Shown here: positions 3,015-49,195 of the stretch, in pieces
Layout: the number at the start of each line of letters is the position of its first letter
Numbering within the stretch: the stretch's first letter is position 1
From: Antedon bifida
Lineage: Eukaryota; Echinodermata; Crinoidea; Comatulida; Antedonidae
Assembly (NCBI GenBank): GCA_963402885.1
Contig: OY727102.1
Span: 12,710,001-12,774,000 of the forward strand
Length of the DNA stretch: 64,000 bases
Direction of reading: 5' to 3'
Notes under the pieces: model-generated
The model's input: only the letters and a program-made list of their open reading frames with translations
Told to the model about the DNA's origin: nothing
Database searches by the model: none
Made by a program: the position numbers and the translations under genes

Positions 3015-4781
3015 TTAATCAGATGAACATTTGATCATACGACGAAGAGTAACACGCATAGTAGGCTGTGATAGTATTATGGCCAACGGGTTCATGATAC
3101 TGTTTGCATACTTAAATACATACGTTACCCTGAATAAAATACTTAAAGGTTCATTCTTCGATTCAACTGAGGGCGTATGTTGCTGCCAAGCCAAAATTAT
3201 GGTTGAAAGAGAGTAGCCAGACCAAGTCAAAACAAAAAATAGTATGATTAGACAAAGGGTTAAATATGTTTTGTTACTGCCGCGAAACCATTTCTTTTTC
3301 TCATTTTCTTCTTTACCATTGCCAGTTATTCGTCCACCTTTCGACTTACACATTTGTGTATCATCTGATAAAGTACTAGTTTTACTAGATTTTCTTTCAA
3401 TTTGTCTGTCAGATGTAGCAGATTCTTTGCGCGTGGTTGTAGGTTTATTACAATAAGAGGAGGTAGTCATCTTGTCTGTTTCCAAATGTGGAGGTATATT
3501 CTCACATATTGTGGAAAGTGGTCTGTCACCGTGAGATATGGTAGATTGTGTATCAGCAGAAGATATATTAGTTTGATGGTGAGACGATGCAGAACGTTGT
3601 TTATAAAGCCATGGGCGATTATGTTTATCGGAAGGTGTGGTAATGTGCTTGTTGTCGGAAAATATCGAAACACGTATGTCATTTTCAGATTTAAGAGTTT
3701 TGACTGGTGTATCGGAAAGTGTTAAAGTTGTCTCGTCTAAAGATTCACTAGCCAATGTGTGTTTAAATGTCGTGGCTTGCTCGTCAAAGGAGTTACCGAT
3801 TGGTAAATGTACGCCTTTTTTGTCGAGAATTTTAGTTTGTTTTTTGGAAAATGTTATTTCTCCATTGGACGTTTTGTTGTCTGTTGGTAATCCACCCGTG
3901 CTGTCGGAGGATGAGCGTCTATGTGAGTTGATCTGAGATGCGTTATTTCGAACAAGCGCATTTCTATAAACTGGCATTTCGAAACCAGTATTTATGTATT
4001 TACAATATGAATCGATATCTGATAATGTGCCTATTTTATGATGCAGATTACTATCTGTTATTTGTGTTAATGATGTGCTAGTAGGCCTCATAATTTCAGA
4101 TTTATTTGGCGATTTTAAACTTAATAATGATTTGTTAGAATTTCGTTTCTTTAACTTATAAAGTATGTTTCCGTAAATTAAACTAATGATAAGCCAAGGG
4201 CCCCAGAAATATATGCCGGTCACAAACGCAGCAGACCAGACGTAGTTGTAGTATTCCGGCAGTGTATAAAAACTCGTGTTTTCAGGTTCTTGTAAAATGT
4301 CCAAAGATGTTTTCAGAGGCATCCATATTACTACAGAAACCAACCAAGGCGAAGCACACGTGACCACTGTCTTTATTTTACTTCGGTTAATTCTGTACTT
4401 GAATGGAAAATATATTGCATACAGTCTATCAAAAGCAATTGTTATGATGTTAAGGTTGGATGCTAGTAGAAGGATGTTGTGGATGTCTTTGACAACCAGA
4501 TTTCCTTTGATGCAATGTGGATCATCTGGAAGAGCGAAGCAGATTCCGCCGATCAGAACGATCAAACCCGTTGCTAAGTCTATCATATTTAGGTTTATAA
4601 TATACCTGTTTGCGTATGTGCGTAGTTTCTTCTCTGTCATAAATGCTAACAGCGTAATAGTATTGATGAGAATAATCGTTACACCGACCAAACAAGTGCT
4701 TGCAAGTATTGATATTCCTTTTTGACTGTTACCATCTTCATACGTTGTTTCATCAATCGTCAAGTTGGTCAGATTATCCAT
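3015..4781 (-). CDS. Divergent aminergic-like orphan GPCR (rhodopsin class)
   Basis: Encodes a 588-residue seven-helix receptor, expected at the plasma membrane. The N-terminus carries two N-glycosylation sequons (Asn3, Asn6). TM1 has its Asn (Asn40), TM2 its Asp (Asp68), and TM3 ends in Asp-Arg-Leu (118-120) followed by IYFPFKYR, closest in feel to muscarinic and histamine receptors. A Ser/Thr-rich third cytoplasmic loop of roughly 300 residues precedes TM6 and TM7. Start choice: the frame runs 10 codons further upstream, but TTTATTTTACAG (acceptor at 4786-4788) sits four bases before ATG 4779-4781, so upstream codons are intron and the 5'UTR is spliced. Oddities: no Cys in the second extracellular loop although Cys90 is present, His101 where amine receptors have Asp, the TM6 Pro is missing (TWSGY), and NPxxY reads NPLAI. 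Family membership is secure; the ligand is unknown. Confidence 0.87.
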   Translation of the reverse strand: MDNLTNLTIDETTYEDGNSQKGISILASTCLVGVTIILINTITLLAFMTEKKLRTYANRYIINLNMIDLATGLIVLIGGICFALPDDPHCIKGNLVVKDIHNILLLASNLNIITIAFDRLYAIYFPFKYRINRSKIKTVVTCASPWLVSVVIWMPLKTSLDILQEPENTSFYTLPEYYNYVWSAAFVTGIYFWGPWLIISLIYGNILYKLKKRNSNKSLLSLKSPNKSEIMRPTSTSLTQITDSNLHHKIGTLSDIDSYCKYINTGFEMPVYRNALVRNNASQINSHRRSSSDSTGGLPTDNKTSNGEITFSKKQTKILDKKGVHLPIGNSFDEQATTFKHTLASESLDETTLTLSDTPVKTLKSENDIRVSIFSDNKHITTPSDKHNRPWLYKQRSASSHHQTNISSADTQSTISHGDRPLSTICENIPPHLETDKMTTSSYCNKPTTTRKESATSDRQIERKSSKTSTLSDDTQMCKSKGGRITGNGKEENEKKKWFRGSNKTYLTLCLIILFFVLTWSGYSLSTIILAWQQHTPSVESKNEPLSILFRVTYVFKYANSIMNPLAIILSQPTMRVTLRRMIKCSSD

Positions 4782-4784
4782 GAT

Positions 4785-4800
4785 TCTGTAAAATAAATTT
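4785..4800 (-). promoter_or_regulatory. 5'UTR splice acceptor that sets the GPCR start
   Basis: On the minus strand TTTATTTTACAG ends at 4786 and the exon begins AATC followed by ATG at 4781. It implies at least one non-coding upstream exon and argues against the TTG-initiated extension to 4811. Confidence 0.65.
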
Positions 4801-5022
4801 CGTTCAATCAATCACTCAATCGATCAATCAATCAATCGCATAAAATTAAATTCAAATACGAGTATTATGACCATCAATGTGATAGGCTAATTCTTCGTTG
4901 TCTTTTACTATTCAGAACCTCATTAATATCGAACTTACACAAAAACGGTGCCATTATGACGTCATAGTTTGGGACGTTAAGTTATTAATGCTTTGTTAGA
5001 ACTACGATTTTTTTTATCTAAA

Positions 5023-5107: not shown

Positions 5108-6329
5108 AATGTATATTTTTCCGTGATGATCATTGTAATGATGATTCTGATTTATGTATTTACCTGGGTTGCTCAACAGTTATTATAAACAGTTTCAAGT
5201 AGTCCTTTCTTCAACAACGTCTTATTTTGATTGTATTTTAAAAGCTTGATGTATGCTTTCCAAACGATTTCTACTCCTCTTGCACCTTTTTACTACAAAT
5301 TAATATTAAATTAAATTTCATTAAGCAATCGAACATAATCATAAGGTAACTATAATCAAGTGTAATCAATATTGTCTACGGCCTAAAGATATTGAAACTG
5401 AATTGCTGAATGCAACTAATAATAGTTGAATATCTAACTGAACCGCCATTTAAAAATCAGTGAAACTAAATCACAATGAACTTTAAGTGGTTTTTAGTTA
5501 CGTAAATACAAACCAAAAAAAATGAATATCGATTTTGAAAGGAATAGCAATGTTTTGGTACCTTAATTTAAAGTCATTATTAAACTTAAGGAAATTGAGT
5601 CGATTGAACGCTACTTAACGTGATGATCGATAACAATAGTTTGTCAAAGTGGATATTATATGATATTAAAATGACATATTCAACAACAACTATTTAAATA
5701 TATATTAAAAAATATTCCTAATAAACAAGTTGGTATATAATATCAAACCTACGTACCGTACTGAAGAATATTAGAAACCCGATGTTCTTCCTCGATTTTG
5801 ATGTTTCCGACCTTAAACCTGGAACGATGATAGAATGAATTGCCAGAGGAAGTGTTGTTTTATTTAAAAAATGAGTATGTATACTAGAAAATACAGCAGT
5901 CGCATGATTGGCTAGTCTATGACATGAGGCGTAAGTATAATTAAGTGGTATATAACCATTTTTAATAGGCCTAGATGTTCGTTATGAAAACAGTTATGTT
6001 CAATTAATAAAATCAGGACTAAAATTAAATTGACCTTTAGAATAAAGATTGTTATTTAAAGACATTCGATATTTTTATCTTGCTCACTAAATGTGCTTAT
6101 ATTTTATAATGTGTTTTAAATGAAATTTTACCATGTATGGCTTATTGAAAGTTGACGGTCCTGAATATGTACTGGTATAAGAGGGCCCCGAATACTGACA
6201 TCTTTTTTGTCCTGCTAGAAAAATACAGTTGAAATATATAAATTAAGCATTCAGAGAGAATTAATTATACAGAGACCACCAAACGGCAGATACGATACGA
6301 GAATCGTGATTTTATTGTCGATTGATTGA

Positions 6330-6420
6330 TTTGATTTGAATATATTAGAAAAATCATCATAAAGATACATACAAAGTGATAACATAAATTACTGACACTA
6401 AAAATAAATATATTTATAAA
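6330..6420. repeat. Dispersed repeat shared with 39790-39890
   Basis: Both loci share GATTTGATTTGAAT, AAATCATCATAAA and CATACAAAGTGATAACATAA in the same order and orientation, with scattered differences. Probably the 3' end of a retrotransposon; no coding part is recognisable here. Confidence 0.5.
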
Positions 6421-6877
6421 AATTAACTATGCATTTGCTGCAATGAATAAGTATTGTTTGAGAGTTGTGTACTAGCTGATAATTAGTTAATTTAACCATG
6501 GTCACTTAACACTTGACTTAAAAATAATTATTAAGTAATTAAAATACTTTTTTAATTGGAAATTTGTATCTAATTTTAGCTCTATAAGCATTGTGTTATA
6601 TAATATATTGTTTGAAGGTTTTCAAGTCAATATGTTGAAATAAAGTATAGGCCTATCGTATACCACATTTATAATTCAGAACTGAGAAACAGTTCTTTTC
6701 AGAACTATATATACGTGCTGTACCACAAACTGTATATTTATTATAATATACTTTGTAACATGTACACTAGTCACGGGTTATTATCATTTTAAAGTTAAAT
6801 AACAATCAGATATGTATTATTATAGATAATACAGAAAGTTTTAAAAAACAAGACATGTTGATAAATTATCTTATGAG

Positions 6878-10938: not shown

Positions 10939-13474
10939 ATGACGGGGGTTGTGTTTGGTGGTTCTGGTGGTATAGGGAGGTCTATAGCATTACATCTTCT
11001 AAAAAACAAGTATAATGTTGCTATTCTTGGACGTAATTTAGAAAAGTTACGTGCAGCAAAAGATTATATTGAATATGAGGCTTCAGGTTAGTGTCAATAA
11101 GACCAGGCAATGAAGTATTAGGCTAGTAGGTCTAGCTAGGCCTAGGCCTAGGCCCGGGCCGCATGTGCTCGGGCCTAGGCCTAGTATTAAAGTGGCTAGG
11201 ACTAGGCCATCCGGCCTAGCTAGGCCTACCTTTATTTAGCTACGACGTGTTACTGATAGATATAGATAATTTCTAATTCTTTCTCAGTATGCCCTGGTTG
11301 GGCCGTAATTGAAACTATACAGGCTAGGCCTACAATACACCCACCATTTGTGTATACTATACTGTATTTACTATTAAAATGTGTGTAAATTTAATTTACA
11401 GTCACTGTAAATGTTTACCTGATAATTAATATGATGACAATAATATAACTATTGTAATTTGTATTATGTGTGTTTTTGTTTCCTTAAAAAGTGTTTTGAT
11501 TCTAATTTTTTTAGCAGATAACTCTGAAACACATGGCAGTGTCTTACCAGTAGTCTGTGATGTTACAAACCCAAGCACTGTAAAAAACGGGTTGCAGACT
11601 GTAGAAGAGGTATATGAAGGAAATGTTGATGTCATGGTGAATGCAGCTGGTATCACACGAGATGGACTCCTTCTGCGGACTTCGCCAGATGCCATCGAAG
11701 AGGTGCTGCACACCAACCTTCTAGCATCAATAATCACCAGTCAGGCAGTCTTAAGAGGCATGGTGAAACGGAAAAAAGGATCCATTTTGAATATTGGTAT
11801 GGATTGTATGCATGAACAAGTTCAGGTGCTATTCAATAGACATTATTTATGACTTCTACATTACATTAAGATCATACAACCAGTGGGCATCCAATACTTG
11901 AAAAGAAGAGGAAATATGGTTGTGTGCTAGCTGCCATACACCCATACACAAATGTTTTTACTATTTTAATAAATGTCATCTGCATTGTTAACTTGTGGCA
12001 ATTTTGTTTTTTGAAATTTATATTTTTAGCTCTGGAAATTGTTTTCACTCAAAGTGTATGAACCCTGTTTAAAAATTACAGTATACTTTCCCCATATTTG
12101 TAAAACCTTCAAATGTAAATGCCTGCATGTTTGTATATAACCGATTATAATACACGATTTCTTAATATTTTAGGGAGTGTTCTTGGTCTACGTGGCAATA
12201 CAGGCTCAACTGTTTACAGTGCCACTAAATCTGGCCTCATTGGATTTACTAAATCACTAGCTAAGGAGGTAGCCTCAAAGAATGTCTCTGTCAACCTTAT
12301 TGCTCCAGGTACATAATACTAAGTTTTATAACACACCTGATTGTATTCATGTCTGTTAATTGTGCATCACATGCCGTTTGGTATAAAGGTGCGCTTATGT
12401 CGACACAGAACTCAATTCAACTGAAAGGAACTTATGTTAAATTCTCGAGCAACTAAACATAACTGAAGGAACCAGCGAGCGAGCGCTTCTATCGACACTG
12501 AAACTGATTGTAACTTGTCATGGTTACCATAACATGCGTGCAACGCAATTCGTAGTTGTATAGTAACCAGTATGCACAACTGCTTATAAGGAAACATCGA
12601 ACTGACCACTACTGGTTACGTTACCCATACTACATATGTGACACGATTAAATGTTTTCAGTTGCGCTCAAGTTGCAGTTACTTGAGAGCGTTTACGTCAA
12701 CACAGTTGAATTGAGTTCCATGTCTTGTTGATATCTACTGTTGATAATGAACAGATCTAATATCAGGCAGGCATGGGGAATTTTCAAATTTCCAGTTAGC
12801 TATATATTGTGGTACCATTAAGTGTTAAATTTGCTTATGCTTGTATTTTGTATCTTTTAACAGGTTTTATCAGAACAGATATGACAAAGTCTTTATCGGA
12901 GGATCAGTTTGCGAAAACAATTCCTTTACAACGATTTGGAGACCCTTCGGAAGTAGGCAATGTTGCCATGTTTCTTATAAATTCTACATATATCACAGGA
13001 CAGGTGTGAATGATTGATAATAAATTGTATTATGTCTCTCTATTACTCAGAGACTGAATAAATGCATGCAACAACATTCAAGTAACTGTAACATTTATTG
13101 TCGGCCATTACAATAGTGGAGCTGTAGATTGGTGGTTAACGTGCTTGCCCGGTCCGGGGTTCAATCCTGACCTAGTACCAGGGTTGTAACTCACGACTCT
13201 TTCAACTCCACTCCTCAAGCCTAAAATAAGACTTTTTATAAGCAAGTTATAAAATAGTTTATCCATCCTGTAATTGGCGAGTTTGTGCTCGCTGTTGGAT
13301 GCGTATGAAATAAATAAAATTACTACGTAACCACAATACATTCCTTCTCATTCCAGAGGGCGCTATATTACTTTTAGTACACAACATGAACAACATAATT
13401 GAACAAAATAAGTAATGTAGTTTTTCTTGTTTCAGGTTATTGTTGTTGATGGAGGTCTACATTTGAACATGTAG
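10939..13474 (+). CDS. CBR4: CBR4-like 3-oxoacyl-[ACP] reductase (SDR family), five exons
   Basis: Complete 246-residue short-chain dehydrogenase. Exons 10939-11086, 11518-11796, 12174-12308, 12864-13003 and 13436-13474 all have GT/AG borders and compatible phases (1,1,1,0). NAD(P)-binding GGSGGIGR is at 7-14 and NAAG at 91-94. The catalytic set is Asn116, Ser144, Tyr157 and Lys161 (YSATK), followed by VNLIAPG, TDM and the C-terminal ITGQVIVVDGG. The length and the PGF-TDMTK and IPLxRFGxxxEV signatures match vertebrate carbonyl reductase 4 (about 237 residues). In mammals CBR4 pairs with HSD17B8 as mitochondrial beta-ketoacyl-ACP reductase, using NADPH. The ATG gives the expected N-terminus directly before the Rossmann motif. 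CCCCCACAACAG at 10911-10920 resembles an acceptor, so the 5'UTR may be spliced. Exon 2 has a tandem acceptor. The gene looks intact. Confidence 0.93.
11087..11517 (+). other. CBR4: Intron 1 of the CBR4-like gene
   Basis: 430 bp or so, donor GTTAGT. It carries a GGCCTA-rich block at 11135-11228 including a perfect 15-bp inverted repeat (11142-11156 with 11170-11184, 13-nt loop). Confidence 0.8.
11511..11517 (+). promoter_or_regulatory. CBR4: NAGNAG tandem splice acceptor, CBR4-like exon 2
   Basis: The intron ends TTTTTTTAGCAG. Using the TAG puts exon 2 at 11515 and adds one Ala; using the CAG puts it at 11518. Both keep the frame, giving 247 or 246 residues. Confidence 0.7.
12387..12725. repeat. 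Inverted-repeat element (MITE-like) in CBR4-like intron 3
   Basis: The ends carry GAACTCAATTCAACTG (near 12408) and its complement CAGTTGAATTGAGTTC (near 12703-12718). Both ends are also followed inward by sequence rich in GAGCAACT/AGTTGC words. No coding capacity. Exact borders and target duplication are unclear. Confidence 0.65.
13110..13215 (+). mobile_element. tRNA-derived SINE head in CBR4-like intron 4
   Basis: GCTGTAGATTGGTGG resembles a pol III A box, and GGGGTTCAATCCTGACC contains a B box (GGTTCAATCC) about 45 bases later. It lacks tRNA acceptor pairing, so it is read as a SINE rather than a tRNA gene. Confidence 0.55.
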
Positions 13475-20620: not shown

Positions 20621-23600
20621 CTACGCTTGCGTTATGCAGTGGTGGTCTTTCCGTGACATCCCAGTTTGATGGTGTTGTTGTAGCATCGGTACAAACTCGG
20701 TTACTTCGGCTGCTCGATTATTTCTGCTGTCTGATGGAACCGGTGTGTGAGTAACTAAAGTGGCCTGGCGGCTAATCAGATTCGATGGCTTTATTAATGG
20801 TCGACGACTTGTATCACAACATATCTTGCAACAGGATAAAGAAGACCGAAATTCTCTCCGAAATTTTGCTGTTGGGATAAAATATATATTACTTTCCTAT
20901 ATTTAATAAAAACATTGAATGTACATTTATTAGGCTGAGCTCAGGTTGAGGTCGCATTTGAAGCGAACCTCTTATTGGGACACCCCTATTGAAAGGACAC
21001 CACCTCTATCAAGGGACACCATCCCTATCCAAAGGACACCACCTCTATCAAGGGAAACCACCCTATTCAAAGAACACCACTCTATCAAGGGACACCATCC
21101 CTATCCAAAGAACACCACTCTATCAAGGGACACCATCCCTATCCAAAGGACACCACCTCTATCAAGGGAAACCATCCTATTCAAAGAACACCACTCTATC
21201 AAGGGACACCATCCCTATCCAAAGGACACCACCTCTATCAAGGGACACCATCCCTATCCAAAGGACACCACCTCTATCAAGGGACACCATCCCTATCCAA
21301 AGGACACCACCTCTATGAAGGGACACCATCCCTATCCAAAGGACACCACCTCTATCAAGGGACACCATCCCTATCCAAAGGACACCACCTCTATCAAGGG
21401 ACACCATCCCTATCCAAAGGACACCACCTCTATCAAGGGACACCATCCCTATCCAAAGGACACCACCTCTATCAAGGGACACCATCCCTATCCAAAGGAC
21501 ACCACCTCTATCAAGGGAAACCATCCTATTCAAAGAACACCACTCTATCAAGGGACACCATCCCTATCCAAAGGACACCACCTCTATCAAGGGACACCAT
21601 CCCTATCCAAAGGACACCACCTCTATCAAGGGAAACCACCCTATTCAAAGAACACTACCTCTATTAAGGGACACCATCCCTATCCAAAGGACACCACCTC
21701 TATTAAGGGACATCACCCCTACCCAAAGGAGACCACCTCTATCAAGGGACACCACCCTATTCAAAAGACACCACCTCTATGAAGGGACACCACCGCTATC
21801 AAGGGACACCACCCTATTCAAAGGACACCACCTCTATGAAGGGACACCACCCCTATTCAAAGAACACCACCTCTATGAAGGGACACCACCCCTATTCAAA
21901 GAACACCACCTCTATCAAGGGACACCACCTATATCAAGGGACACTTTCTCCTGAAACGAACGAGCAACTTAATGTTTTAACACAACATCCAATGCCTATT
22001 TATTGGTATCCCCTATTAAGAGGAAGCGTTTTTTCCTGGAAGTGTTACCGTTTTAGAGTAGAACTCAAGAACAGTTATTTTCCTTTGATTTTAATTTGCA
22101 CAAAAGTTTGTATTTTGGGTCTACAATTCTCCCGTTTATATTTGAAATTTAATAGAGGTTTTGATCAGATCAGACGCTGATAATTTGTGACGTAACAGCG
22201 GCACTTGAATGAACAAATAGGCTTTCAGTAATATTTTGCTTACCACTCATAAAGTTGTAGATAATCGGATTGATGGCGCTGTTCATATACACAAGTAGGT
22301 AGGAGACTAGTATTGATATATGAACTCGTCTGTCAATCGACGGATCCGAGTACGTGTCTAAATTGTTGAAATATTCGAATGTTCTTTAAATGAAAAGAAA
22401 GAATAATGATTTAGTATTATTATATTGTGTATGACATGATGAGAATACCCACTCATGCATACTGTACTATGATTGGTATGAATACGCTTTCGAATAGGAC
22501 CGTGTTCTCTGATAGGACTGGAACCCAGATCACCATTGTTATACCGCCAAGTAATGGCCGAGCAGTGTGTAAAGTAAGACCTACATGATAGATTGATTCT
22601 TTAGTGCATTATGTCGTTGCTCGTCTCAATGGACCTTTACAACTCAGCCTAAAAAAAATACTTAGGCCTAAGCCTGTTTTCCTGTCGTCGTCGCATCGAA
22701 TAACGTCGACAGGAAAACATGCTTTAATGTCCACCAAAACTGTGTCGTGTCTCCACGCGCACAGTAGTGAACTAACATGACGTAATTAGTTCATGGTTAC
22801 TGTACGTCGTTGCAAATCGAGTGCTCCCACATCCCCTCTTCATGGTGGAAATTACACATTTCATAACTGAACCAAATACTGTAGTCAATACGAATGTCAA
22901 AATGTGTCGACAATTGAAAATATTAAGCTCTTTCTACACTATCAAACTTTATAATGACAAAAAAAATTGTGATGTGCCCATATATGGATATTATGATGTC
23001 ATATCACTACCATATTTAAGCATATCACTACCATAATATGGGCACATCACATTTTTTTGTCACATAAAGTTTGATAGTGTAGACAGAGCTTTAAGCATTG
23101 ATTCGAATAGTGTTACCATACTCAAGCGATTCTAAAAATAAAGAATTCAATGTTCAATATATCTGGGCATTCCATTTTTAGTATCAATCGGATTTTACCA
23201 AAATCTTTACGCTTTATTTTATGAAATCTCTTGATATTGTACTTTTAAGGTGATTGTTATGAGAATTTGCTTCATACTTACCTCATAAGATTGATTATCC
23301 TAAACGGCAAGTAGCACAATCCGAATGCGGCAACTACTGCGATCAGCATCCGGGCAATTTTGCGCCTCGATAATACCTGCGCCTGCGTGGTACTAAACCG
23401 ACGTCCTAACTTCTTACGTCCATTCGCAACTGTCCCTGTACTATATTCCTCCGTTGGAATTTCCGACCAAAGACGAACGCACACCCGAAAATATGAAACC
23501 GAGATGATCGTCAATGGAACGAAATACGTCACCAGTGCGATGAATACTCGGTATGACTTGTACATCCGTGTACCAATCCAATCAGCCTGTGCACAAAAAA

Positions 23601-26600: not shown

Positions 26601-28992
26601 GAGTTGCCAAGTTTTTGCGTGTGGTTCTGAAACTTGTTGGTATTACGATGCATAAAGACAGTATCCAGACAATTGCAATTATCGCAAGGGTTCTTTTGGT
26701 GTTGCTATGGAACTGAAAAGAGCGACATATTGCCAGGTAACGGTCAACGGCTATCACTGTTAACGTGAATATTGATACACACACTGATACCATCTGAAAA
26801 GATATGAAATGTTATGTTACCAGTGAATTGGGTTCGAATCTCAACCGTAGTCATCAGATGCAAGGCAAAAGCTCGTTCGGTCATGGGAAGTTGCACATCT
26901 TTAAGAGCTGCAACTAAAGTTTAGAAAATGAAAGTTCCATGTAACTATCATAGGTAACCGTTTCCAGGACAATATAGTTATTTGGATTAGAAAAGTATAA
27001 CACTTTAAATTTGGTATGTTTGTCCTATCCTTTTTCAATTAACAACTGTTGTGATGAAAACAGACAAAAGGTTGTCATTTTCTTTGGCAGGTGTGAAAGT
27101 TCTCTCCTCAGCTTGAAAGGAGGGGTAGAAGATGAACTAAACAGCACGCCCCTGACAAGCCATGCAGTGTTCCACAGGTTATCTGGAGAGGTTTTTTTTT
27201 TAAATTTACATTCATCCGTCTGAATTTCACGTCAGTTTTGCTAAATATTAACTGTACATTAATTTATAGTGTTGGAAAGTCGACATATGGAGCAATTAAT
27301 GAAATCGCTAAGTAGCTTTATTAAAATAGTTATACAAACATGTATTGATGAAGATCTTATTATTAGCCTTATATAAGAACCATATGGTATTCCGTAATTT
27401 AAAGCCAACCTTTGGACTGGAGGACGTTTGTGACGATGTGCTTTCATGGATGAAAAAACATAGACCTATGTTATTTTCATAATTTGCGTGAGGTAGGTGG
27501 TTAGATGGGAGTGGGATAGGCGCCATCTTGTTTGGGTGGTAAATGATTTTGGAATTTCATTTTTCTTCGGTAACATAGACTGTTATTTTAAAACAATTTG
27601 ATGTTTATGTTTAAATGTTGTATGTTTCGGTGTCAATTACAGTTTATTGAACGTTTAACCATTCTCCCTTTCCTCTTCCTCAATGTATGACTTATAACTA
27701 TCTTGTATATGAATTTGCTTATTTGAATGAAAAGGTTATTTAGTTAAAATAAATCCAATAAATGCTGATTGTCGTTATGTGACATTGCTATAAAAGTATT
27801 TCATCAATAATAAATTCAATTCCAATGACGTTGCTTGTGATTACTTATTCAATGATCTTTTTCACATCTATGTTCCTTAACAACATTAATAATTCATATA
27901 AACATTTTCATTTATGTGTATTTTCCATCCATCCGTTTGAAGTACCGGCTCCGGCCAAAACTGTTTGATTTTATTCATTAACAATTTATTGAAAAACATG
28001 TTTTTTTCTAGATTTCTGGTTAGGATACATAGTTATAAATAACAAATAATGAAAAAAAAAATGAATTGAATAGAGAAAAAAGTTGCAAATAATAAGGTAA
28101 ACCCACTTAACAATTTACACTGTTTTTTAAGTACCAAAGTCACATTTTTCCTTTATCGAAGGTCCTTATACACATACATTTCGTGTGAATAACAGAATAG
28201 TACATATATTTTTAGTTCTTAACTCTACCCAACTTTACGCCCACATCTTTGCTTGTATTTCAAAATAATCGTGTATACTTAACTTAAGAAAGCTGAAAAT
28301 ACTTGTATTACTTCTATCAGGAAATATTCGGAAATAACATTCCCTGGCTGTTTAAGAATCATTCTAGGAGGAATGGCCCACCAGTCTTTCAGACCCGATT
28401 TCCTTTCTGGTTTATTTTGTTTGTTTTTAACTCGAATCTATATTAGGTTCAGGACGACCAAATTAATATAATCATTATACAGAAGAATTATATAGTTTCC
28501 ATTGTATTAGGCCTATATATTTCTTTGATAAAAGCTCCGACGTACATGTATTCAATTTATTATGAAATATACTGAAAAAATGTTTAGCCCGAGTTAACCT
28601 GGTAGTCCTCGTGTATGTGTTACGATTAGTATTTTATTGAGCAAAACAAATGAAACTCTTACCTGAAAGTAGTGCATAAAGCGACACGATATTTCACCAA
28701 AGAACCACGAATCCGAAACGGTAACGGTAAGTAAAAACGGCAAACAAATCAATATCACTAGCATATCAGCCACTGCTAGGTTCACAATATAGAAATTGAC
28801 TGGTGAGCGCATGTGTGCGTTACGTATTACCGCAACGCATACGAGTAAGTTACCAACTAACGCAATGACAAATACTACAGCGTAAACGCCGATCATTACC
28901 CATTCAAACGTTTCGGGAAATACTTTTTTGCGAATTTCTTTGTATAAAACATCCCGAATGTCGTAATCTTGATCGGTTTCGTTGAAAGACAT
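20621..28992 (-). CDS. Orexin/allatotropin-type neuropeptide receptor (GPCR), five exons
   Basis: Complete 419-residue receptor on the minus strand. Exons 28992-28663, 26793-26557, 23586-23282, 22383-22244 and 20868-20621 have GT/AG borders and matching phases (0,0,2,1). The sequence shows an N-terminal sequon (Asn4), VGNLLVCVAV in TM1, NLAVADM in TM2, SDSWFFGEISC with Cys103 before TM3, DRY at 127-129, Cys187 in the second extracellular loop, ARRKxARML-like RRKIARMLIAVV into TM6 with CYLPF, and NPIIYNF at 329-335. The tail starts KFRREF and has CCKICC (350-355), likely palmitoylated. The FPETFEWV start, WFFG and CYLPF features are those of orexin receptors and of insect allatotropin receptors; such receptors normally couple to Gq. 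Start: ATG 28992; the 27 codons upstream begin at TTG only. All key residues are intact. Confidence 0.93.
20869..22243 (-). other. Intron 4 of the orexin-type receptor gene
   Basis: Donor GTAAGC at 22243 and acceptor TTTTATCCCAACAG ending at 20869. Most of the intron is the 39-bp minisatellite. Confidence 0.85.
20975..21950. repeat. 39-bp bipartite minisatellite inside receptor intron 4
   Basis: About two dozen copies of two similar half-units, GGACACCACCTCTATCAAG and GGACACCATCCCTATCCAAA. The unit length is a multiple of three and stop-free in several frames on both strands, which creates long spurious reading frames. Variants with ACCACCC and GAACACC mark the edges. The half-unit resembles dispersed fragments at 26320-26500 and 30848-30870 (CCTCTATTAAGGGGACA). 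Confidence 0.93.
22384..23281 (-). other. Intron 3 of the orexin-type receptor gene
   Basis: Donor GTAAGTATG at 23281, acceptor TTCTTTTCATTTAAAG ending at 22384. It contains a full TTAA-type MITE at 22927-23089. Confidence 0.85.
22927..23089. repeat. TTAA-type MITE, full length
   Basis: Preceded by TTAA; starts GCTCTTTCTACACTATC and ends GATAGTGTAGACAGAGC. The interior holds CATATATGGATATTATGATG and its near inverse, so the element is close to palindromic over 163 bp. Confidence 0.85.
23587..26556 (-). other. Intron 2 of the orexin-type receptor gene
   Basis: Nearly 3 kb, donor GTATTG at 26556, acceptor TTTTTGTGCACAG ending at 23587. It contains an element with a repeated AATAAATAGACGTTCC (about 24206 and 24343) and ACGCGTT words, and a degraded dispersed repeat near 26310-26500 (GTCCCCTTAATA, GTGTCCCTTAATAGAGG). 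Confidence 0.75.
26794..28662 (-). other. Intron 1 of the orexin-type receptor gene
   Basis: About 1.87 kb, donor GTAAGAG at 28662, acceptor CATATCTTTTCAG ending at 26794. Near 26829-26842 a GGGTTCGAATCTC word looks like an isolated pol III B box, probably a SINE scrap. Confidence 0.75.
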
Positions 28993-31490
28993 TACTTTTA
29001 ATCGGATCGCACAAAATATGCTATTGTATTCCAGTGGTGGTATGGCTCGAATGCGTTCGTTAAAAGTTCGCAAATGTTGAATTGCACCTCATGATCTCAG
29101 AGATTAATTCATAAAGTCAAAAGCTTCTTGATCTCGATCAGTTCGCTAATGAGTCTGGATGTCAAAGCACGTTCAATTTATACCGTGGTTCCAGTCTTGT
29201 AAATTAGTCTTTTCCTATACTTATCAACTCCTATAGTATAAAATAAAAACAATACATGAAGGTGATTTGAAGAAGCGAATTGGCTGTGTACAGCGCATTG
29301 GCTGTGCTCCGTTAGTAGATATCATTTGTTCAAGCAAAGTTGTAAGTTTAAATGCAAGACGTTCGATAATGGAGACTTTATGCAAATGAATTATAATGAC
29401 TATACGCATGCGTAAACATTATCTCTTGATGGTACCATACACAAACACACAAATGTTTGCATTTTAAAGGTGAAATTCGCGGCTATCGTTAGTGTCCGAT
29501 CTAGGCGGATAGTGTCAAAAGAGGAGCCGGTTAACTTCACGTTGCGGCAGCCAGGGAGATCAGCCAACACAAATTGGCGTGTATTTCCGCCGTTACTGTA
29601 TTTCAATTCATGTCGTGACGTAATCAATCCAACACGGACTTACAATATTACAGAAACTCAGATATATGACTATATTATACAAACGGGAAAAAAAGATTAT
29701 ATAAATGATAATTAATTATAAAATGAGAATATATACGCGCTATAGATAAAACAAACCGTTTACTAGTTATATTTGTATGACTTTGTAGCTGTCTACATTT
29801 TATTCACTTTGATAGTTTATTAATAATTATCTTTGTCAAAAGAAAACGTTTATTGAAACTGACATACGTTTAGATTATTAATATACCAGGATATCAATTC
29901 GCTTCTTATTAATGAACCGTAATCTGAAATAACCGTTAGATATAGCTCCGGTAAGCTTTCATTTTCTTAATACTTCAATGACAGGATAATGAGACTGTTG
30001 TGATTTAACGACAGTAAACAAGAAACAAGTTCTGACAAAATATAGATACTTGGTTATAACTCTAAGCTACGTTCACACTGAGCCCGGATTCCGGTCCGGT
30101 GGCCAGATAAAAACAATGTTTAACAATGTTCCCACTCGTGTGATCGGAAAAAGTAACATATCCCTGACTTTTTTTCCAGCCATATTCACGCGAATAAACC
30201 CGTGCTCTGATCTGTTTATTTTTTTTTATTTATTTATTTATAAACATATTTCTACTGGATGACAATATCAACGTTGTCCCACAAAGGGGACATTGTTGTT
30301 TTTCAAAAGGTCCAGCATAAAACATAACAATATACATAATTATATAATACATAGTTTCTTAAAAATTGCTAAAATTAAACAGTCTAAAAATACTAAAATG
30401 TGAGAACCATATATTAAAAATACAAAATTATGATGAAAAATCCAAGTTAAAAAGATGTTCATAAAATTATTTATTTTATTTCGTAGGGCAAAGCTACCTT
30501 TATTTGCCACGTACAAAATAAATATAAATAAGTGATGTGATCGGTTTCGCATTTTTTTCGCTTCACAAAAGGTAAATTGATGTAATAATACGCGTGCGCA
30601 TTAACCAGCGCTTTCGATTCGTACGAATACAATCGCCTTTATAACATTGAAAAAAAGACGTTAAATTGCACATATTAAGCTGACATGCTTCATTGTATAA
30701 TCTTTCTATTGCTTTCTTCTTTTTATTATGTATTACTGATTATTAATGTGTAAACACATGTTGTAACACTTGTCATGTAGCTATGTATGTTTTCCTTTAG
30801 CATGTGATAGAATATAAAGATAAACTACAATAAAAACCTTCCTTGTGACACCCTCTATTAAGGGGACAGTCGGGTTCCCGAGATGTGTATGTACAAAACT
30901 ATACCTCTTTAGTTTGATCATACTGGCATCATTATACCACATATTATATTAAATAAACAAATTGTCAGCATAAAGAACGTAAGCTGATGTATGCATACAT
31001 GATTTCAGGGTTTGTGAACGCGCGTATAGTTTGTGTGTAGAACTGTGAAGAAGCAGGTCTCGTGCCTCGTTATTTAACGGTTTTACCTGGAAAACGATAA
31101 CCTTAGGAAACACGACTTGTCTTAGACTGGCGGCAGAGATACGTAGAAAGTACAATTATCTGTGACATCTAAATTTTATATGTCACTTATCGTTAACTAA
31201 CATTGATTGTTTCCGTATTTTGTAAAAAAAAAAGGTGAACGTTTTTTTCATTCCTGGAACGACTTAGACCTTACAACTCTCCAAGCTTATATTATAACGT
31301 CAAGAACACAAACTTTAACACACATATCTAACGTACGCTCATAGTACGGTGGGCTTATTTTAGTTTAAGCAATGTTGTTTATCGATATTGACTGATTGGG
31401 TTTGGTAGGCATGTCTTGCACTGCAGTGGTTTTGAGAAAAAAAAATTCGAACGTAATAATTTTACTTTATTATTATAGAACGTCGAAAAT
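28993..31490. other. Upstream flank of the orexin-type receptor, no second gene
   Basis: Presumably promoter and 5'UTR followed by intergenic sequence. I see no recognisable TATA box or start site. It includes a CTCTATTAAGGGGACA dispersed repeat near 30850 and an A/T-rich retroelement-like stretch near 30205-30330. Short frames here show no family features. Confidence 0.4.
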
Positions 31491-46150: not shown

Positions 46151-46246
46151 GCTCTGTCTACACTATCAAACTAGTTTGACAAAAAAGTGATGTGCCCAAA
46201 TATGGTAGTGATGATGTTACATAAAGTTTTATAGTGTATACAGAGC
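46151..46246. repeat. TTAA-type MITE, internally deleted
   Basis: Starts GCTCTGTCTACACTATCAAA and ends ATAGTGTATACAGAGC, with only about 60 bp between the ends; shorter than its relatives. Confidence 0.8.
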
Positions 46247-46383
46247 TTTAAACTTGGTTCCTTGTTGCGTCCACCTAATAAGAAACAATATTTAAGACAG
46301 CGACTTATAACACATTGTATACGCGGAAATGGAAAATGGCAGATGTGTAAATTGACTTTTTGACAACTTTAGTAAGTAAGGTA

Positions 46384-46730
46384 TAGTCAGGCAGCATTTG
46401 TATTTTACTTCATATATTTAGCCAAGTTTGATTTTTCACTTTTAAGTGATCAAGGACATCACAACGAACAACTTCCAACTTGTTGTCCAAATTCTAAACG
46501 AGTTTTTCATTCGCTGGGGGCGCTTTTTCAAAATGGCGGCTTATGCTATCAAGTACTTATATCTCGGCAACCACTAATCGTAGAGACTTGGTTTTAATCT
46601 TAAAATGTTCGTAAGATACATATTTCTATTTACTCTAATGAAACATTTTGACCAGAAATGACTGAAAATGCCATTTCTGACCATTTGACCTTTGACCTTC
46701 TATCATCATATCTCGGTAACTAATGGTCAC
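46384..46730. repeat. Left terminal inverted repeat of the 46384-49170 transposon
   Basis: Matches the complement of 48830-49170. It contains a perfect DR1 nuclear-receptor element (TGACCTTTGACCT, 46686-46698). Confidence 0.85.
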
Positions 46731-47033
46731 ACAGACTTGAAATTTGTTTCAAATTGTTCGCAGTATGCCTTTTTATATTTACTGTAATTAAATGTTTTGT
46801 TTTAAAGCAAACAGAAATGCCATATCTGACCTCTTGCCCTAATGCATGTAATATCCACAACTGAGAGACTATAGATTTGTCTAGTATTGTTTATAACTTG
46901 TACCGGTACTTGTGGTTTTGTTGATGATATCCCTTGTTCCAAAATCAATATTTCAAATCACCAATGGAACTGTTATAATAAATAAATACATACTATAAAT
47001 ATTGATGATAGATAGTCAGATTACCCTCTCCAG

Positions 47034-48345
47034 TCAATAAAGTTCATCGATATCGTCTACTAGCTCTACATTCTCACATCCATCACCACACTCACATGCA
47101 TCAGTACAGAGCAAGTTGTTTTTCTTACAACTACAGCGATTTGTTGAGCATGAACCATTGCAGGTACATCGACGAATTTCTAGAAGAGCTTCTGGTGCTG
47201 GTGGATTGTTGCAAAATACCGGCTTCAAGTGGCCATCTTCTAGTTGCCAGGAGTAGTCAGTTGCTGGTGGAATAGATGGAGTTGGCTTGCATGATGAATT
47301 CCATACAATAGACATGTAGTATGCTCTTTCCACGTGTGGTCTAAGAGTTCCCATGGTTGGAGGTAATTGTTGTCCTTCCTTGCCTTTCTGTGCAAATAAC
47401 ATCCATCTCAAGTCTGTGACATAATCTGCCTTGATCTTAGAAGTACTGTATAATATGCAAACATATCTTTCCATTTACCTGAAAATCCAATTTGGTATTT
47501 CAGAGGTCAGTCCATATACAGCAAATGCATCTAGTATTTCATCGTCACATTTCATAAGTGCTTTGAAATGGGCGGACACTCCTTTTCCAGCAAATGTACC
47601 TGTGTTATCTGTAAATGCGTACCATCCAATCAGTGCTGCTGATATTTGTTTTCCAAGTCGGTAATAGCATTCCCATATAGGTATTTTTTCCCCTATTTTC
47701 CTACAAAATGTGGTCATTGGAGGAAGTAGAGGATAGCTTCCTGTTAAAAGGATAAAGACAACAGTATCTACAGAAAATATGTCAACATTGGCACTTGGGT
47801 CTTTGTTCATACAATCAAAGGCATTCAATAAGACCAGTTGGTCCCCTTCTTCCAATGTGTGTTGTCCGTGTGTCATCTCTGGCATCATGATAATTTCTGA
47901 GAGATTGCAGTTTGCCATCATGGACATGTGATGTGTTACTAGGACCTTCTTCGTGTTGTTCTTGAAGTGATTAAGTATCTTCTATGACAGGTATTTTGTA
48001 AGTTCAGCTTTGGTCTCTATGTACGTGCGATAAAAATGTCTTAATGTTCTTAATCTCAGTGTTGTCATTGACATGGTAGTGAATGGTAGTTGTTTTCTGT
48101 GTTCTCTTATCTCGTGTAGATTCTTTTAAAGATCCTGATAGATATTGATCAAATAAAAGACGAACTTCATCATATGGTTTGCTCATACCAACAATCAGGT
48201 TAACAAATTCAGATGCAAAGTCAGAAGCATTGAACTTATCAGACACCTTCTTTACCATATTGACGACACACATTCCATCAATAATTAGGATTGATGCTGC
48301 TTTTGTATCATCTTTCTGTACAAGCCTGCTGAAACTATGCTGGAA
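47034..48345 (-). pseudogene. Transposon-encoded FEN/XPG-like nuclease with CXC tail, broken
   Basis: One protein family can be followed over the whole span on the minus strand. The N-part has ILIIDGM (near 48270, a candidate catalytic Asp) and RLLFDQYLSGSLK. The middle has HTLEEGD, VDIFSVDTVVFILL and GWYAF-TFAGKG; the C-part has LPPTMGTLRPHVERAYY and PPATDYSW. The end is a CXC domain with spacing CxCx3Cx4CxCx6Cx3CxCx3C. It resembles a large uncharacterised family seen in cnidarian and echinoderm genomes, where the middle motifs usually read DTDV and TGCDT. Here one Asp is Val and the Gly-Cys pair is missing. Breaks: a frameshift near 48010-48025, TAG at 47982-47984 and TAA at 47475-47477. 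Upstream exons, if any, are not recognised. The copy is almost certainly inactive. Confidence 0.75.
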
Positions 48346-48829
48346 CTAGTTTATAACTATTTAACTAAGGCCTCTCTGTACAACATTTATATCAGCATAG
48401 GTACATTATTATACAAGTAAATGTATATGTACTAATAATAAGTATGATTTCCCAGCAAACACTATTTAAATCGGTTTAAAAAACACTTGCCATTTAAACT
48501 CATGAAATCTAATCTGCTTGAACTTTCAGCCAATCACAGGCTAGGATTATGTATGGAGATATGGCTTTTATTTATTTTAAAACTTTAATTTCCAAGCTTA
48601 AGTGAATGTTTTAAAGCATCAATAATTGAAAAATCAATAATGTGTTACAAATATAGATGTTCTGAGCAATCTGTCGAAAAATGTTATGGATATCACACAG
48701 GCTATGGTCAAAGGTCAGATATGGTTTTTCCGGCCATCTTGAAACAAACCTTTGCATTAAAGCAAATAGAAACATGTATTTTCTGAACAATTTGGGATAA
48801 ATATCAACTCTTTCTGACCAATAGTTATT

Positions 48830-49170
48830 GAGATATGATAAGATCAGGTCAAAGGTCAAATGGTCAGAAATAGTATTTCTGGTCATTTTAGGGCTAAATG
48901 TTCCATTATAGTGAATAGAAATATGTACCTTACAAACATTTTAAGACTAAAACCAAGTCTCTACGATTAGTGGTTGCCGAGATATAAGTACTTGATAGCA
49001 TAGACGGCCATTTTGAAAAAGCGCCCCCAGCGAATGAAAAACGCGTTTAGAATTTGGACAACAAGTTGGAAGTTGTTTCTTGTGATGTCCTTGATCACTT
49101 AAAAGTGAAAAATCAAACTTGGCTAAATATATGAAGTAAAGTTAATATAGTGACAAATGCTGCCTGACTA
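48830..49170. repeat. Right terminal inverted repeat of the transposon
   Basis: Complement of the left repeat. It carries the DR1 element AGGTCAAAGGTCA at 48846-48858; a further DR1-like site, TGGTCAAAGGTCA, lies just inside at 48705-48717. Confidence 0.85.
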
Positions 49171-49195
49171 GTAAGTAAGTAAGTAAGTAAGTAAG
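49171..49195. repeat. (GTAA)n microsatellite at the transposon edge
   Basis: Six GTAA units follow the right end; the left flank also has AGTAAGTAAGG. The element probably landed in this microsatellite. Confidence 0.8.

Follow-up and report, generated by a model that had tools for sequence, protein, structure and literature searches.

An element with long inverted repeats (TIRs) enclosing a single decayed gene, the product of which appears to join a FEN/XPG-like nuclease to a CXC cysteine-rich domain, raises the question of whether such a protein can be the transposase and to which group of DNA transposons the element belongs. The element considered here lies in the genome of Antedon bifida, in a 64,000-nucleotide stretch of contig OY727102.1 that is referred to below as the window. 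The present analysis indicates that it is very probably a recent, non-autonomous internal-deletion derivative of an AcademX-like DNA transposon, intact relatives of which encode a probable DDE core together with the FEN/XPG-like nuclease and the CXC domain; as judged from the sequences, the proposal that the window gene is by itself the transposase is not supported.

The transposon occupies positions 46384-49170 of the window (2,787 bp), exactly the limits given in an earlier sequence-only reading, and its outermost bases (46384-46401 and 49153-49170) are complementary at 18 of 18 positions. Agreement between the flanks stops after exactly 3 bp (GTA/GTA) at the ends of the element. The inverted repeats noted in that reading are real, but their length of about 345 bp was an underestimate, the full TIRs extending over 478 and 488 bp (Table 1); they are 83.4% identical over 488 aligned positions (83% over 487 nt in an ungapped comparison). 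They enclose one minus-strand gene in three open pieces, in agreement with the single decayed gene recognised earlier. A small MITE-like inverted-repeat unit (window 46151-46246; 22-nt arms, 91% alike and 52 nt apart, GCTCTGTCTACACTAT) is situated just left of the element. Elsewhere, the window carries a 39-bp unit repeated about 25 times in an array (20977-21944), more than one of its forward frames being open. Three further pieces, at 3015-4811, 28594-29088 and 11430-11852, come from host genes: two of them represent receptors of the rhodopsin family (7tm_1, E=3.3e-24 and 6.2e-18), and the third is an exon of a short-chain dehydrogenase (E=2.3e-19).

Table 1. Features of the element, in positions of the window
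Feature	Position	Strand	Remarks
Target-site duplication GTA, left copy	46381..46383	.	Flank comparison
Left TIR	46384..46861	+	478 bp, tip TAGTCAGGCAGCATTTGT
3' piece of broken gene	47034..47474	-	C-terminal 146 aa, CXC domain at end
CXC (Tesmin/TSO1-like) cysteine-rich domain	47067..47174	-	Pfam TCR, aa 101-136, E=0.15 on the piece alone
Middle piece of broken gene	47475..47981	-	Second half of FEN/XPG-like nuclease: EEGD, DTV for DTD, TDNTGTFAGKG block
5' piece of broken gene	48004..48345	-	First half of FEN/XPG-like nuclease: IDGM and LFDQY blocks; 44% to L059 aa 1190-1285
Stretch shorter than in 3.0-kb sisters	48343..48480	.	About 137 bp unaligned versus about 360 bp in L013
Right TIR	48683..49170	-	488 bp
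Target-site duplication GTA, right copy	49171..49173	.	Flank comparison

The genome search with the element end that had been proposed on the basis of the sequence did recover further copies. The 17-base tip has 45 exact occurrences in the 315.6-Mb genome and the same pattern read backwards has none, and a chance origin is excluded. The first 317 bp of the element match at least 41 places (35 at 81-100%, five at 75-77% and a single short stretch at 85%), a lower bound as scoring covered the best 40 of the 835 candidates from a first look. Twenty loci were fetched, comprising eighteen further loci of the window family (L009-L026; L011 carries a TIR only) and two more divergent ones (L027 and L028), which have the same exact tip and a TIR only about 74% alike; in the sequence fetched for these two, neither the nuclease nor the core left a trace.

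Target duplications of exactly 3 bp were observed in 14 of the 15 copies tested, the window copy included, with triplets that vary from site to site (GTA, TTC, TAA, TTA, TTT, TAC, ATA, GAA and TGA); L019 is the sole tested copy without a duplication. L011, L021, L023, L025, L027 and L028, being truncated, interrupted or with the second end not found, were excluded from this test. The flanks of L018 and L020 are identical and represent one insertion duplicated together with its surroundings. Six of the 16 copies measured have a length of 3,008-3,051 bp. Pairwise divergence in the gene region of ten of the 16 copies aligned has a median of 1.6% and a range of 0.6-2.5%, the window copy differing from the other nine by 1.3-2.0%. 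Since ten copies differ by so little in the gene, the family is considered young and the window element is taken to be a recently inserted member of it. Two of the loci, L009 and L012, are palindromic, with a spacer of about 0.4 kb flanked by inverted arms of about 1.2 kb that are 96% alike, and L023 and L025 share part of their sequence. As L009 and L012 are 98.7% identical over the whole length and yet occupy different sites with different duplications (TTC and TAA), the palindromic form itself must have moved.

The acidic blocks IDGM, LFDQY, EEGD and TDN are all present in the window gene, with the DTD block reading DTV, and its C-terminal piece shares 26-46% identity with the corresponding ends of the five full-length relatives that were read. 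In a protein search of the genome with the CXC piece (best 150 of 298 candidates), 21 matches have at least 86% identity and the rest 24-53%. Twenty of the 21 are located in 17 copies that have one TIR or both, and the last, a 39-aa remnant, belongs to L018, in which both TIRs are present. The gene and the TIR thus travel together, because all the high-identity CXC matches sit in TIR-bearing copies. TIR copies without the gene combined with paralogues without the TIR, a pattern that the sequence-only reading had named as contrary to its view, were not what was found: the high-identity matches, 21 of 21, lie in TIR-bearing copies, and it is the divergent L027 and L028 that show no sign of the gene in the sequence fetched.

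Among the CXC-search matches listed, there are also single open frames of 1,458-1,801 aa. Six such loci were read, with five distinct frames of this length range (measured from stop to stop), and these relatives have at least 1,000 further residues upstream of the nuclease-CXC part. Their element structure could be delineated as follows, with the outer tips of L059, L060 and L061, each known from one copy, less certain as they were chosen jointly by ends and duplication: L059, 6,145 bp, tips TAGTGTAGGC, duplication ATG; L060, 6,843 bp, tips TAGTC[C/T]ATGGG, TIRs 99.3% identical over 686 aligned positions, duplication AAA; L061, 9,519 bp, tips TAAGCGGAGGTCC, TIRs 98.4% identical over 740, duplication TAA; L062, 6,789 bp, perfect 16-bp tips TAGACTGTGGGCCAAG, duplication TAA; and the pair L063 and L064, copies of one 9.2-kb element with short ends CAGTCGG and 4-bp duplications (ATCT and TATT). 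L063 (C8:6763859-6773077, 9,219 bp, open frame of 1,801 aa) and its C12 copy L064 show 99.97% identity across 7.6 kb and 99.94% across the final 1.8 kb, and the 9,219-bp element has, to judge from this identity, probably moved very recently. A third place, C9:14743715, shows the same CXC match and frame length as these two. With the window family, L060 and L062 share only the outermost bases (TAGTC and TAG, respectively). From the N terminus onwards, their proteins appear to consist of a cysteine/histidine-rich part, a putative RNase H-like DDE/D-type core, the FEN/XPG-like nuclease and the CXC domain.

The assignment of a core to the middle region is based on conserved residues. Alignment of seven middle regions revealed 13 invariant positions, among them D69, D235, H264, D479 and E483 (7/7), with spacings of 155-200 residues for D69-D235, 28-32 for D235-H264 and 241-256 for D235-E483; D, E and H make up five of the 13, a modest excess over expectation (p ~0.02). 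Several DDE transposases have three acidic residues and, a short distance beyond the second of them, a histidine motif, and the middle region, with its invariant D, D, GxxH and D/E, is likely to be the catalytic core. In PMC9587614, Academ is listed among the DDD/E superfamilies and a C/DxxH motif is described in five others, of which the GxxH of the middle region may be the counterpart. A profile of the middle region compared with the solved structures identified no transposase, the best of the irrelevant-looking matches being at E=0.0075 and 0.085, and, as a contrast to the nuclease profile, no nuclease; a profile comparison of the nuclease with the middle region showed no relation.

These results bear on an unlikely alternative, namely that the relatives constitute a separate DDE superfamily outside Academ, endowed with their own FEN nuclease and CXC tail and related to the DUF6589 proteins. 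No Pfam or NCBIfam transposase family matches the five full-length proteins at E up to 1, and the core is linked to a single family, Pfam DUF6589 (PF20231), which matches one of the seven middle regions over profile positions 64-365 of 410 (E=2.1e-5) and a second at E=0.03, both below the Pfam cut-off. A genome-wide search for DUF6589 (E up to 0.01) gave two places, both at loci with a CXC match, as compared with none in the 14 control genomes, and a search of a literature library under its name or accession gave no relevant paper. It also speaks for a separate superfamily that the Academ identity is derived from described features and not from aligned sequence. Against it stands the joint occurrence of 3- and 4-bp duplications with a nuclease, as reported for AcademX in PMC10045372, according to which AcademX makes 3- or 4-bp and AcademH 9- or 10-bp duplications, related to the encoded nuclease and helicase. 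Similarly, the 100 curated bivalve Academ elements reported in PMC10294476 have a mean of 5,565 bp, near the 6.1-6.8 kb of three of the elements found here, the other two being of 9.2 and 9.5 kb.

The relation of the window family to the full-length proteins was examined with the L059 frame as the reference. Since the window gene aligns to L059 only at aa 1190-1602, and its best sister L017 from aa 1109, the family keeps roughly the last (C-terminal) third of the full-length protein. Searches of the 19 window-family loci with the first 1,000-1,250 aa of the five full-length frames detected no core sequence inside the family elements; the only match was in L026, to aa 75-163 of L059 (34%, E=4e-8), an N-terminal part with YHR.CY and CxxC residues. 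The second half of the nuclease begins within about 30 bp after this piece, which is absent from the seven sisters compared. L026 is thus a differently deleted sister, and its sequence is direct evidence of descent by internal deletion. The parental element accordingly coded for no less than the N-terminal and nuclease-CXC portions, and by comparison with the relatives it would have encoded the core as well.

A co-occurrence count gave a similar picture. A core match within 6 kb upstream was found for none of the 20 window-family CXC matches, and for 26 of the 62 divergent ones. The count used 82 of the best 150 CXC matches (of 298 candidates) and 50 of the 81 core matches (66 of 397 candidates scored), so that the other 36 divergent matches include elements missed by the L059 core query (L063 and two sisters) and possibly also matches left out; none of the core matches left out, among those listed, is near a window-family CXC place. 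A full-length parent with the TIR of the window family was not found among the matches listed, and the parent may have been lost, unassembled, missed by the search or replaced by cross-mobilisation from a relative. L017 (6.5 kb) was considered as a candidate parent and rejected, its extra 3.5 kb being a separate nested element without any frame above 91 aa and without a match to the five full-length proteins; the insert (3,502 bp, ends GGCTGGTATTCATGAAAGGGGACTA) has inverted ends of its own and a 4-bp TAAG repeat. In L023, where the palindromic family copy ends near 5400, a stretch at 5525-6761 consists of a TIR-like part (69-73%) followed by core-end and linker matches; the portion 5904-6357 matches aa 1001-1158 of L061 and aa 835-924 of L062. 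The core-end stretch apparently belongs to a neighbouring, more divergent element.

The proposal that the FEN-CXC protein is the transposase itself and the 3-kb element complete and autonomous is very improbable when weighed against these observations. It would account for the recent spread of the family, for the short architecture of most copies and for the lack of a core copy beside this TIR among the matches listed, and it has in its favour that L017, alone among the 16 family copies, keeps all the acidic blocks and the CXC domain in one unbroken frame of 502 aa. Of the other copies, L015 has a longest forward frame of 499 aa, with DTG where DTD is expected, and the rest have 116-424 aa. 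Against the proposal, the full-length relatives carry at least 1,000 extra residues with an invariant D-D-E, the N-terminal coding sequence in L026 implies that the short form is derived, and the palindromic L009 and L012, without a complete gene, have also moved. Moreover, differences between the copies in the leftover frame are distributed evenly over codon positions 1, 2 and 3, at 28, 43 and 37 for 108 singleton sites and 8, 4 and 7 for 19 shared two-state sites, five multi-state sites being set aside; by this measure, with the shared sites few, no purifying selection on the leftover nuclease frame is visible and nothing indicates that the spread depended on the protein. The mechanistic claim that a flap-endonuclease-type enzyme without a DDE core moves a long-TIR element and makes 3-bp duplications has a very slender chance of being correct; if true, a self-sufficient FEN-CXC element would represent a nuclease-only mode of cut-and-paste transposition. 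With regard to the view of the sequence-only reading that the gene is a transposase rather than a host gene, the DNA is indeed mobile and not of the host, but the gene alone would not be a whole transposase, since the full-length relatives show it to be the C-terminal third and searches of the family loci did not reveal the core.

The identity of the nuclease part, proposed earlier from the acidic motifs, gained support from profile comparisons. Exonuclease 1 accounts for five of the six PDB matches of the nuclease-only profile (best E=0.012 for the whole sequence), with the VFD...SKE.ER..R and GCD...G.G blocks aligned in the correct order (E of 4 and 35 for each stretch alone), and XPG_I matches one of eight nuclease regions at E=0.0042, below the Pfam cut-off, the other seven being without an XPG match. 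The acidic blocks of the family nuclease are in order and the scores are borderline, at the level of sequence only; they are supportive of a FEN/XPG-like nuclease. The CXC tail that had been recognised along with these motifs was likewise recovered, the LIN54 CXC structure being the top match of the relatives' profile that includes it (E=0.0021). Capture of a host repair nuclease gene (EXO1/FEN1-like) by a TIR element, which the resemblance to Exonuclease 1 might suggest, is hardly credible and was already disfavoured, as the two are only remotely similar (E ~0.01) and several divergent transposon proteins, with different TIRs, have this nuclease-CXC unit at the C terminus.

The window element is therefore best explained, with the high probability given at the outset, as the deletion derivative of an AcademX-like transposon, and its mobilisation may be envisaged as follows. 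A full-length element would supply the DDE core in trans, the derivative would be cut out, and it would be pasted at target cuts staggered by 3 bp. The CXC domain may help to grip the TIR DNA, and the FEN-like domain may act at the transposon ends, where it would trim flaps or the second strand while the element is excised or the gap repaired. Large proteins that have a FEN-like nuclease and then a CXC domain at the C terminus and no Pfam or NCBIfam transposase match can be viewed as transposon proteins with a probable DDE core. The near-identical 9-kb copies and the TIRs that are 98-99% identical are signs of recent activity in the Antedon bifida genome. A concrete test becomes possible of why a DDE transposon should carry its own flap-endonuclease-like enzyme, for which the 3-kb derivatives, in which the nuclease part is separated from the rest, are natural substrates.

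A comparison with the known systems helps place the element. To Exonuclease 1, FEN1 and XPG, the nuclease shows a remote similarity, in the ordered acidic blocks, the GCD...G.G block and the best PDB matches; the host EXO1, FEN1 and XPG repair enzymes are not known to have CXC or DDE parts. The Kyakuja-Dileera-Zisupton (KDZ) elements have large DDE transposases with cysteine clusters, and neither KDZ nor an associated CxC Pfam family was detected in the five full-length proteins (E up to 1) or the seven middle regions (E up to 10). PIF/Harbinger elements target TWA, with a 3-bp duplication of TAA or TTA, and were rejected since the duplications of the family include GTA, TTC, TTT, TAC, GAA, TGA and ATA besides TAA and TTA. 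Kolobok elements have TTAA as the target duplication and were likewise rejected, those of the family being of 3 bp and varied in sequence. The likeness to DUF6589 proteins consists in the weak match over the core region noted above. The original description of Academ reportedly includes an XPG nuclease and a cysteine-rich finger. AcademH, described as belonging to the same superfamily, differs in its helicase and 9-10-bp duplications; a Pfam scan of the five full-length proteins (E up to 1) gave no helicase family, and the duplications here are of 3-4 bp. The difference from AcademX is that the window copy is without the core altogether, including the region with the invariant D69, D235, H264, D479 and E483 of the seven relatives, for which no structure match was obtained. 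With AcademX, the elements share 3-bp duplications (14 of 15 window-family copies, and L059-L062) or 4-bp duplications (L063 and L064), a FEN/XPG-like nuclease, borderline in score, in one protein with a putative DDE-like core in the full-length relatives, TIRs, long proteins and a size of several kb. Since 3- and 4-bp duplications occur together with a nuclease as reported for AcademX (PMC10045372), the Academ affiliation suggested in the sequence-only reading finds support in the nuclease-type, Academ-like profile, and membership of an AcademX-like group, defined by described features and not by an aligned reference sequence, appears probable.
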